This document shows, piece by piece, positions 8,792 to 12,045 of a stretch of 64,000 nucleotides of DNA (the first letter of the stretch is position 1; every line of letters begins with the position of its first letter). The translations under genes and the position numbers were made by a program. Source of the stretch: Candidatus Hermodarchaeum yapensis (GTDB taxonomy: Archaea; Asgardarchaeota; Hermodarchaeia; Hermodarchaeales; Hermodarchaeaceae); contig JAEOSK010000003.1 in the NCBI GenBank assembly GCA_016840405.1, forward strand, positions 1-64,000. The letters run 5' to 3'. Below the pieces are notes generated by a model that had not been told where the DNA came from, ran no database searches, and saw only the letters and a list, made by a program, of their open reading frames with translations.

Positions 8792-9985
8792 ATGATGCTT
8801 AAGATTAACAAAGATGAATGTACTGGTTGCGGTCTCTGCGTGAAAGTCTGCCCCTTTGACGCGATGCACCTTGTTGGCGAGAAGGCCCAAGACGACGAAA
8901 AATGTACCCTCTGCGGAGCCTGCGTGAAAGTCTGCCCTGTTGATGCAATCACCATTGAACGCAAACGGGTAGATCCCTCCAAGTTCAAAGACTTCAAAGG
9001 TGTGTGGGTCTGGGCTGAACAAATCGACGGGCAACTCCGCAACGTCGGTCTCGAATTACTCGGAAAGGGTCGAGAACTCGCAGACAAACTCGGTGAACCC
9101 CTTTGTGCCGTTCTACTCGGTCATAACGTGGACGAAATGCCGAACATTTTGGCCCAAAACGGTGCGGATATCGTCTACGTCAGTGATCAGGAGATTCTTG
9201 CCCATTACACCACCGATGCCTACACAGACGTGATTTCTGCCCTCATTCTCACTGAAAAACCGAACATCGTTCTGTTTGGTGCAACATCTAATGGACGAGA
9301 TTTAGGACCACGAATTGCAGCACGCCTGCAATTAGGACTTACCGCCGATTGCACCGGCCTCGACATTGACGACAAGCGTCAACTGATCCAAACCCGCCCT
9401 GCATTTGGTGGGAATATCATGGCCTCCATCCTCAGCCCCTATACCCGCCCCCAAATGGCAACCGTTCGCCCCAACGTCTTCAAACCCCCCACCGATGCTG
9501 CCAAGAAAGCGGACATCCGTGAAGTAGATATCAAAGTAAACAAAGCTGCCGTCCGCACCAAAATCGTCGACACCATCATCGAAATGGAAGAAGGAGCTCT
9601 CAAAGTCGATGAAGCCGAAATGGTCGTCACCTGTGGTCGCGGCATCAAAACCCCTGAAAACATCGAAGTCGTCGGCGAACTCGCCACCGAACTCAACGCC
9701 GCTCTCGGCGGCTCCCGACCCATCGTCGACCAAGGCTGGATGAAACACCACCAACAAGTCGGCCAATCCGGACGCACAATCGCTCCCCAACTCTACATCG
9801 CCTGCGGCGTCAGCGGCGCCATCCAACACCTCGTCGGCATGCGCACCAGCGACGTCATCATCGCCATCAACAACGACCCCGATGCCCCCATCTTCACCGT
9901 CGCCGATTTTTCAATTGTAGGAGATCTTTTCAAGGTCGTCCCAGCAATTGTGAAGGAACTGCGCCGTGTGAAAGCTCAAAAATAG
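8792..9985 (+). CDS. etfA: Electron transfer flavoprotein alpha subunit with N-terminal 2[4Fe-4S] ferredoxin
   Basis: 397 residues. Residues about 9-55 hold two CxxCxxCxxxCP clusters (CTGCGLCVKVCP, CTLCGACVKVCP), followed by the usual alpha chain with the FAD-binding motif SGRTIAPQLYIACGVSGA and NNDPDAPIFTVADFSIVGD near the end. The fused ferredoxin suggests electron exchange with low-potential carriers, as in anaerobes. From about 9430 to 9906 codons end very often in C; the last 26 codons do not. That end appears to have been supplied by the mobile element that follows: an orphan second copy of the gene's last codons lies at 11480-11539. The stop is only 3 bases from the frame-corrected stop of the convergent endonuclease-like gene. 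Confidence 0.95.
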   Translation: MMLKINKDECTGCGLCVKVCPFDAMHLVGEKAQDDEKCTLCGACVKVCPVDAITIERKRVDPSKFKDFKGVWVWAEQIDGQLRNVGLELLGKGRELADKLGEPLCAVLLGHNVDEMPNILAQNGADIVYVSDQEILAHYTTDAYTDVISALILTEKPNIVLFGATSNGRDLGPRIAARLQLGLTADCTGLDIDDKRQLIQTRPAFGGNIMASILSPYTRPQMATVRPNVFKPPTDAAKKADIREVDIKVNKAAVRTKIVDTIIEMEEGALKVDEAEMVVTCGRGIKTPENIEVVGELATELNAALGGSRPIVDQGWMKHHQQVGQSGRTIAPQLYIACGVSGAIQHLVGMRTSDVIIAINNDPDAPIFTVADFSIVGDLFKVVPAIVKELRRVKAQK

Positions 9986-11479
9986 TTGCTATTTGGATTT
10001 TACAAAAGTTCTGGCGATCCAAGTTGCAAATGCTTGGCGTTTTCTTTCATGGTTAGGTGGTGCTAAAAGTCCCCATCTGATACTTGATTCATACCCAGAG
10101 GTCGAAACTGTCCAATTGGAACTGGAATCCGGAGGCGATCGTTTTCTTCATTATATTGAACATGACCTAATTGGTCTAGGAGGCTCTTAACGCGTTGGCG
10201 GCGTTCGAAGTCTCTTTCTACATAATATAGTACACGTTTTTCGTCAAGGTGACCGTCAGAGAGCATGGTAGCAAGGAGGCGGGCTTGGAGGATTTCGATG
10301 TTGGGGAATTTGGGGTCATTAACGAAGCCGCCATCTCGGAAGCCGATGTGGCTTATTTCGGGTTTAATTATGTCGAACGAGGTTCCGACGGCGTCTAGTA
10401 TGATATGGAGTACTTCACCATGGAGGAATGGTTCACGGTTGCGCAGTTCGGGTAGTGGTTCGTAGCCTTCATGTTGGCGTTCGGTGTATTGCCCGATAAG
10501 GCGCGAGAATTTACTAATCCCGGCTGTATAGGAGTCAGTTTCGTTGTTGAAACCGAGGTGTCTGCAGGCGTTTTCGACAAGTTGATTTTTGAAATCAGGA
10601 TTCTTGAAGTGAAAGATTTCGTCGTTCCATAGGTTAAGCCAGTGCTGTGGGTTGGTGTTTTCGTGCCAGAGGTAGAGGACATTACTGACGACGCCGAGGC
10701 GGATTTTCGTGTGGGGAGTTTCGTGGGTTTTGAGGAGGGTGTTAAGGCGGGTTTCGATAGGGTGGCGGTGTTGGTGGATGGTTTGTGCGAATTGACGGAG
10801 CCAGGTGGGTCCGCGTTCGTGGTAGGGTCGGAGTTCGGCGAATATCACTCTAAGTTTAGTATCTGACTGATAGTAGAGGGATGCAATGGTAGTGGCAGGG
10901 AGTGTGGGGTTATGGCGTTCTGGGTGACCACGGAGCGGTCGGAGAGTATGGTAAACAGTACCAGCGTCAATGCAATGATTGTGGGCTTCAGGGGCTAGTT
11001 TGGCTTTGTGTTCGACGCGAGCGTTTTCGTGGGAAATTAGAGTTCTGAAGAGTCGGGGTTGTTTCTTTCCATTTAACCAAAAGCTGATTTGTGATTGATG
11101 AACGCCATAATGGTTGGCAAGTTGGTTTTGAGAAAAACTGGAGAAGATTTTGTTGTTTTGTTTCTTTTGTAGAGAAAGGAATGCTTGTGCGGTGTGATAA
11201 AGGTTCGGAAAGTTAGAGCGATCACGGAGGTAAGGATGATTATCAACTAGTTGGTGCAATTGTTGGACGGTGGTAATGAGAGTCGAATGTATATCTTGAT
11301 GATGGCGTTGAGAACCAAGTAGACTAGTACGCATCAAAGACATCTACTAGCATTACCATATCTCCTGAATGTTTTATATTGACAGAGACTAGCATCAAAC
11401 TAATCGTTTGGACTTCGAAGTGCGTGTGGTTGGATTCACTTAGCGATTTACTAGCGGTGTGATGATTAGTTAATTAAAA
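9907..11479. mobile_element. WHO-like homing element inserted in the 3' end of etfA
   Basis: The element, as I define it, comprises the recoded last part of etfA (about 9907-9985), a convergent HTH/LAGLIDADG-like gene, and its promoter region. Right after it, the displaced original etfA end begins at 11480. The left border is inferred from the change in codon style after GTCGCCGAT at about 9906; the right border is where homology to the etfA end resumes. No terminal inverted repeats or target duplication are visible, which fits insertion by endonuclease cut and homologous repair rather than transposition. The yeast WHO elements at FBA1 have the same layout. Confidence 0.65.
9989..11343 (-). 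CDS. HTH plus LAGLIDADG-like homing endonuclease (one frameshift near its C-terminus)
   Basis: The uninterrupted frame runs 10063-11343 (426 residues). Residues about 68-96 form a helix-turn-helix (SQNQLANHYGVHQSQISFWL). The C-terminal part reads ARLLATMLSDGHL, a LAGLIDADG-type helix with a candidate catalytic Asp, then RLRIPVPIGQFRPLGM, typical of the domain's later strands. The frame stops at a T run (complement of AAAA, 10065-10068). One extra T would continue it for about 25 residues (LAPPNHERKRQAFATWIA...) to a stop at 9989-9991, three bases from the etfA stop. A TATA-like AATATAAAAC lies at 11371-11380. The frameshift could be decay or an assembly error. Only one LAGLIDADG motif is evident, so dimer action would be expected. 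Confidence 0.6.
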
Positions 11480-11539
11480 CTCTTCAAAATCGTTCCTGCA
11501 CTAGTCAAAGAAATCAAGCGAGTTAAGACGCAGAAGTAG
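11480..11539 (+). pseudogene. Displaced original 3' end of etfA
   Basis: Read in the + direction this encodes LFKIVPALVKEIKRVKTQK and a TAG stop. The current end of etfA encodes LFKVVPAIVKELRRVKAQK and TAG. 14 of 19 residues are identical, with four of the five differences conservative, but only 39 of 60 bases match; most identical residues use different third bases. Upstream in frame there is a stop (TAA at 11471), so this piece is not expressed as part of etfA. It is best read as the native gene end pushed downstream by the insertion. Confidence 0.8.
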
Positions 11540-11604
11540 CCTTTTGCAGAGTCCTTTCCGTTAATTGATTGACGACAGAGTCATAGTATGTGATTCTTGC
11601 AGCG

Positions 11605-12045
11605 TTAGGCAACCATTGTTTCTTTGGCGATGAGACCTGCGACGAGGGCGAGGAGTCCGGGGATGGCTCCTAACAGGATGATGATGGTGTAAATGTCTGG
11701 TACGGGGGTTCCGGTCAAGAGGTAGGAGAAGTAACCGGGTAGGACGCCGCAAAGGATGATTGCGATGATTCCGGTGATGATGAGACCGATTTTTAGTTTG
11801 CTGGGTTTGATGAGGAAGATGATCCAGAGGATGAAGAATATCGTACCGGCGAGGATGCTGAGGGCGAGTGAGCCCATCAGGTTGCTGGCCATGACTAATT
11901 GTGGGTCGAGGGGGTCGAACACTGCGACCAATGCGATGCCGATGAGGTAGATGACGAACAAGAAGATGAAGAAGATGTTATAGATGAGTTGGATGACAAT
12001 TCCAAAGATGACCAAAACGCGTGAAGCATTTCTTTCTGCCACCAT
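11605..12045 (-). CDS. Small four-helix membrane protein, unknown
   Basis: 146 residues with four hydrophobic segments at about 9-40, 58-80, 86-107 and 118-140, almost no charge between them, and no recognised motif. The start ATG is preceded by GGAGG on its own strand. It lies just beyond the displaced etfA end, so it was probably the original 3' neighbour of etfA. The 287 bases between it and the next gene hold nothing I can support. Confidence 0.7.
   Translation of the reverse strand: MVAERNASRVLVIFGIVIQLIYNIFFIFLFVIYLIGIALVAVFDPLDPQLVMASNLMGSLALSILAGTIFFILWIIFLIKPSKLKIGLIITGIIAIILCGVLPGYFSYLLTGTPVPDIYTIIILLGAIPGLLALVAGLIAKETMVA

Follow-up and report, generated by a model that had tools for sequence, protein, structure and literature searches.

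A decayed element at the 3' end of etfA in Candidatus Hermodarchaeum yapensis and a probable family of gene-end-replacing homing elements in Asgard archaea

Introduction

The WHO elements of a few yeasts (genera Torulaspora and Lachancea) have been put forward as a third class of homing element (Coughlan et al. 2020, PMC7282813). WHO proteins are relatives of HO and of the VDE intein, carry zinc fingers and mainly target FBA1 (PMC7282813). A similar arrangement occurs in fungal mitochondria, where mORF gene hybrids were described for atp6 of Allomyces and for atp6, atp9, cox2 and nad3 of Glomus (Beaudet et al. 2013, PMC3630166). A search of the open-access literature, with subscription papers outside its scope, turned up no description of such elements from archaea or bacteria.

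Here we describe a locus of Candidatus Hermodarchaeum yapensis contained in the window, which is the whole stretch of 64,000 nucleotides analysed (contig JAEOSK010000003.1). The locus is very probably a decayed homing element, one of an Asgard-archaeal family whose members replace the 3' ends of host genes. Like WHO elements, the Asgard elements have a free-standing LAGLIDADG gene beside, not inside, the host gene (the etfA stop codon precedes the convergent ORF), a divergent version in place of the host 3' end with the old end beyond the nuclease gene, old ends clustered in tandem, pseudogene decay, and either orientation. Unlike WHO proteins, the Asgard proteins gave no HINT or zinc-finger match in Pfam and NCBIfam and have HTH-like N-terminal and unassigned C-terminal domains, and their targets are at least nine different genes on archaeal chromosomes. 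Likened by anatomy alone, the mORFs also bring a foreign carboxy-terminal coding end with an endonuclease ORF and displace the native end; synonymous recoding is prominent in both, and the mORFs are LAGLIDADG in most cases (PMC3630166). However, the mORFs are mitochondrial and in many cases lie in phase with the host gene or are transcribed together with it (PMC3630166), whereas the Asgard ORFs lie on archaeal chromosomal contigs and are mostly convergent and separate. Archaeal intein and intron endonucleases (TliVMA intein, I-DmoI, I-Tsp061I) share the LAGLIDADG nuclease fold with the Asgard proteins but interrupt the host gene and are spliced out, while the Asgard element leaves the reading frame uninterrupted.

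Results

Two ends of etfA in the window

The host gene etfA (8792-9985, forward strand) encodes a ferredoxin-domain and ETF alpha protein (Pfam ETF, ETF_alpha and Fer4) and is a functional chimera. Its functional tail reads LFKVVPAIVKELRRVKAQK, with the stop codon at 9983-9985. The recoded 3' end (9907-9985, forward strand; tail ADFSIVGDLFKVVPAIVKELRRVKAQK) is unlike the native tail of the related genome G001 and was presumably supplied by the element. A second copy of the end, LFKIVPALVKEIKRVKTQK followed by a stop, stands as an orphan at 11480-11539 on the same strand (tblastn E=3e-7 in the flank) and is the displaced original end. Beyond it, at 11605-12045 on the reverse strand, lies the native downstream neighbour, a membrane protein gene.

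The functional and displaced ends were identical at 14 of 19 residues and 39 of 60 bases, and 11 of the 14 common residues were encoded by different codons. Recoding sets in around the ADFSIVGD codons, upstream of where the displaced copy starts. Elsewhere in the window, on both strands and in all frames, no 57-nt segment matched the etfA tail at 9 or more of 19 residues, and in codon-shuffled control windows the best match was only 7-8 of 19, indicating that the duplication is not due to chance. The recoded duplication described in the first-pass annotation was thus confirmed and is unique within the window.

A degenerate nuclease gene between the two ends

Between the two ends, on the reverse strand, there is a degenerate LAGLIDADG homing-endonuclease-like ORF of 426 aa (10063-11343) with 35-37% identity to intact relatives of 660-800 aa. 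The LAGLIDADG-like motif LLATMLSDGHL, noted in the first pass together with an HTH, was located at 10246-10278 on the reverse strand, and its catalytic D was present in all 71 family members covering the column; the HTH is present but weak (aa 71-98). The gene had been taken to extend over 9989-11343, but the open frame covers only 10063-11343. The segment 9989-10123, also on the reverse strand, is in another frame, abuts the etfA stop codon and was recognised with family proteins in tblastn as a remnant of the nuclease C-terminus, with 57% aa identity to a remnant in genome G003 (2.6e-16) and a match of 3e-8 to other members. The window ORF keeps the N-terminal HTH region and motif 1, while the second motif and most of the C-terminal domain are gone. 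Since the C-terminal end is encoded in another frame and motif 2 is absent, the gene carries an internal deletion and a frameshift, and this copy of the family gene is predicted to be dead. Neither this predicted death nor membership in a family with many targets was part of the first-pass annotation.

No HINT or splicing domain was matched in the window protein or the family (Pfam, NCBIfam), and no group I or group II intron was matched in Rfam at 9700-11800. A search for transposon-like terminal repeats found none.

Empty and occupied etfA sites in relatives

Homologues of etfA were found in 16 of the 20 genomes searched. Genome G001, of the same genus, has an empty site, in which etfA ends with a displaced-type tail, GDLFKIVPALVNEIKRVKAQK (also given as FKIVPALVNEIKRVKAQK), and the next syntenic gene follows directly. 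The displaced copy in the window was 89% identical to this native end at the aa level and 78% at the nt level, compared with 74% and 68%, respectively, for the functional tail. About 94 bp after etfA, G001 carries the homologue of the window gene at 11605-12045, followed in the same order as in the window by a methyltransferase gene and a kynureninase-like gene. The proposed comparison with an insert-free relative therefore gave the expected junction.

The etfA genes of G003 and G004 have recoded-type tails. Behind the etfA stop codon, G003 has a convergent C-terminal fragment of the nuclease gene of 135 aa, and G004 has a short resemblance to the G003 sequence and nothing more. The latter is suggestive of a scar of a nuclease gene, and both loci are best read, from their sequences, as decayed occupied sites. 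It had been reasoned in the first pass that insert-free relatives with the recoded end would speak against an insertion; G003 and G004 resemble such relatives superficially, with the nuclease piece retained in G003 and the short resemblance in G004. Between the window and G003, the etfA gene body was 92% identical in DNA and the last 19 codons 68%. FBA1 of yeast likewise has elevated 3' divergence (PMC7282813).

Displaced ends at other host genes

All comparisons rest on metagenome assemblies, in which contigs often end at family elements. In a systematic test, a second copy of the gene end was sought (E<1e-3) beyond the nuclease gene at 37 loci with a convergent neighbour gene and enough flank. 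A displaced tail was found at 8 of the 37 loci; among 296 shuffled control pairs there were two matches, both between copies of the same host gene. At the other 29 loci no displaced end was detectable, with decay and short fragments limiting detection. A ninth case, in tandem orientation, was found at an HDAC-like gene (L083); a replacement of the 5' end considered for L083 was rejected, because it is actually this 3'-end replacement. A tandem match at L066 was rejected as an antisense artefact. The nine loci concern nine host genes, encoding EtfA, a 49-kDa/NiFe-type hydrogenase large subunit, an MvhA-like NiFe hydrogenase large subunit, a class V aminotransferase, Lsm, ornithine carbamoyltransferase (OTC), MTHFR, ScpB and an HDAC-like protein.

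Wherever relatives could be compared, the polarity was the same, with the displaced copy native and the functional copy foreign. This comparison with empty-site relatives leaves out ScpB, MTHFR and the HDAC-like gene, and gene-body identities near 30% were ignored as indel artefacts. The cleanest pair was the class V aminotransferase of G064 and G086, with gene bodies 96% identical. The displaced end in G064 was identical to the native G086 end at 29 of 29 residues, the functional tail was 86% identical in aa, and the DNA downstream of the displaced end was the same as in G086. Both copies in G064 have the same altered codons at the junction, GCAAGTTTCTATCT where the native gene has GCTAGCTTTTACCT, which would follow if the donor sequence flanking the cut were copied to both sides. 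For Lsm, the displaced copies were 93-97% identical in aa to the two closest relatives and the functional tail 70%; for the MvhA-like hydrogenase the values were 79-85% and 71-74%, respectively. The displaced OTC end remains connected to the gene that follows in the operon, and only this downstream linkage, not protein identity, separates it from the functional end.

Several loci have more than one old end. Beyond the nuclease gene at its hydrogenase gene, G003 has a nested cluster of four old ends in varied states of decay, and two old ends each were found at lsm of G064 and at the MvhA-like gene of G003. The four decayed hydrogenase gene ends lie in a row at 7674-10513 of L066 (reverse orientation). 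In three of them the start falls near the same CFSCTDR codons, making a shared cut site likely. The MvhA-like target has a related motif, DPCLSCAVH, at the same place.

The contig of the window (C42) contains a second decayed element near 121 kb, at MTHFR (L273:3505-5710), where the MTHFR gene is followed by nuclease C-terminal remnants and a displaced MTHFR end (residues 235-308, 69% identity). The lsm locus of G086 (L093:2012-5253) carries a nuclease that shares 87% identity with the one in G064, yet its lsm tail is of the native type and the native sequence follows downstream. The tail was possibly reverted by gene conversion.

The nuclease family

A profile search (E<=1e-8) found the family in 44 of 228 Asgard genomes, and a single-sequence search with the window ORF found it in 15 of 99 relatives. 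The genome of the window itself has two larger paralogues of the ORF. By named records, the main hosts are Hermodarchaeota, to which the family of the window belongs, and Thorarchaeota. A contig pattern scan yielded nothing with the window protein alone, no usable patterns from a diverse alignment, and 12 named loci with an alignment of closer members. Sampling outside Asgard archaea was shallow, consisting of this pattern scan, and the matches were Asgard-named except for one record labelled 'archaeon'. No relatives were found among viral contigs (scan) or phage records (tblastn).

Intact members are mostly about 660-900 aa long. Matches in Pfam and NCBIfam did not go beyond a weak HTH and a single LAGLIDADG_3 match below threshold. 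In profile searches against the PDB, an alignment of close members gave nothing, and a wider alignment gave a weak match to the archaeal TliVMA intein (7qsu, E=0.05) spanning both catalytic motifs. Acidic residues were present at both motif columns in all 69 members covering both. An AF2 model of a 660 aa Hermodarchaeota member (pLDDT 88.8, pTM 0.83) was matched, among the PDB entries listed, exclusively by LAGLIDADG proteins, including the TliVMA intein, I-Tsp061I, PI-SceI and I-DmoI. The whole-query TM-score was low (about 0.2) because only the nuclease part of about 280 columns aligns. By its two motifs and modelled fold, the family belongs to the LAGLIDADG endonuclease superfamily. The structural match anticipated in the first pass was thereby obtained with an intact relative; the window copy is without motif 2.

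The stop codon of a convergent gene was within 100 nt in 21 of 82 C-terminally intact members, and many family members are away from any recognisable gene end. At about 15 loci a partner gene encoding about 175-315 aa runs in the same direction as the nuclease gene and overlaps or nearly abuts its stop codon (L082:5125-5763, L265:4367-5176, L086:2773-3717 in reverse orientation, and about 12 more). The partner genes are mutually homologous, had no Pfam match, and may be accessory or regulatory genes of one branch of the family. Two genomes have closely related giant members of about 1,460-1,474 aa (L079:3036-7409, L081:1207-5631) with repeated HTH-containing N-terminal units, which may set target choice.

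Nuclease lineages follow the target gene

In a nuclease tree of 61 members, the nucleases beside lsm, S19 and AdoHcyase (3 genomes each) and beside the hydrogenase gene (2 genomes) each formed one fully supported group, and the single genome G064 holds members of several target groups. The target labels need the minimum of 9 changes on the tree, a value as low being reached in 0 of 200 shuffles. The nuclease phylogeny tracks the target gene and not the host, indicating that each lineage stays with its target gene, as homing would predict.

A convergent family nuclease, partner gene or remnant stands directly after S19 and after AdoHcyase in four genomes each (L086, L216, L263 and L270, and L088, L253, L264 and L282), and most of these contigs stop short of the far side. 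S19 and AdoHcyase are probable further targets. The occupied S19 gene of G064 was 90-98% identical in DNA to those of G086 and G218 upstream and 77-80% in the last 40 codons. G218 was rejected as an empty site when tblastn found an element there, so S19 shows tail replacement and not a simple pair of empty and occupied sites.

Discussion

These findings agree with the mechanism put forward for the WHO elements of yeast (PMC7282813). The mobile unit would consist of a recoded host 3' end, a free-standing two-motif LAGLIDADG gene that in most cases is convergent with the host gene, and a piece of the host end that would serve as the second homology arm. We infer that the nuclease would cut sensitive alleles of a conserved gene close to the gene's end, at what becomes the junction, and that repair from the element-bearing chromosome would bring in the recoded end and the nuclease gene and push the old end to the far side. 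The recoded end would specify nearly the same protein with the recognition sequence gone, and would thereby be resistant. Further rounds would pile up old ends, and the nuclease gene would then decay, as in the window. Archaeal mating or other mixing of alleles is assumed, since homing needs it. Counting against the model are the 29 convergent loci at which no displaced end was detectable, the many family members away from recognisable gene ends, and the native-type lsm tail beside the nuclease of G086.

An alternative is that unequal recombination or non-homologous repair duplicated the tail of etfA and that the nuclease gene is a passenger unconnected with this, able to settle in intergenic sites behind genes. 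A free-standing gene after a stop codon is cheap for the host, and some family members are away from any displaced tail. However, copies from a simple duplication are near-identical at first, and here it is the functional copy, not the displaced one, that diverges from empty-site relatives; the aminotransferase pair has the same foreign functional tail and native displaced tail. Nine different genes also show the pattern, in every case with a nuclease of this family separating the copies, and the nuclease clades sort by target gene, leaving a duplication with a passenger gene very improbable. The displaced ends might also form a silent archive from which the nuclease swaps C-terminal endings, as HO does for mating types in yeast (PMC7282813). 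Such cassette switching agrees with the loci that have more than one archived end, but most loci have a single one, and the archived ends are decayed by stops, frameshifts and truncation and encode nearly the same proteins, so that there is little to switch; we regard it as very improbable.

Metagenome-assembled genomes whose contigs often end at these elements raise the question of two genomes fused by assembly or binning. Synteny is kept to the left and right of the insert, and independent genomes from two families share the arrangement, which makes such an artefact highly improbable. Least credible is a remnant of an intein or self-splicing intron interrupting etfA. Its appeal lies in a nuclease fold common to intein and intron endonucleases, but the frame of etfA reaches its own stop codon ahead of the insert, the opposite strand encodes the nuclease, and neither splicing domains nor a group I or II intron were matched; the anatomy of the locus refutes this reading.

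The homing element thus very probably accounts for the window locus. The first-pass annotation had called it an archaeal counterpart of WHO, which holds as an analogy of anatomy and fails as homology: the absence of a HINT or zinc-finger match and the different targets indicate that it is not a WHO element by descent. The Foldseek match to PI-SceI (about 280 columns, 12% identity, E about 5e-5) stems from the LAGLIDADG fold that both proteins have. The Asgard elements probably arose independently of the yeast WHO elements and, within the open-access literature, are the first prokaryotic case found.

If this reading is true, the same anatomy built from a differently organised Asgard protein family would mark a general, probably convergent strategy. 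The Asgard loci would provide work on LAGLIDADG specificity with many natural allele pairs, one sensitive and one resistant. The elements would explain how highly conserved Asgard genes can come to have ends with a foreign history, and would imply homologous DNA exchange between Asgard lineages.
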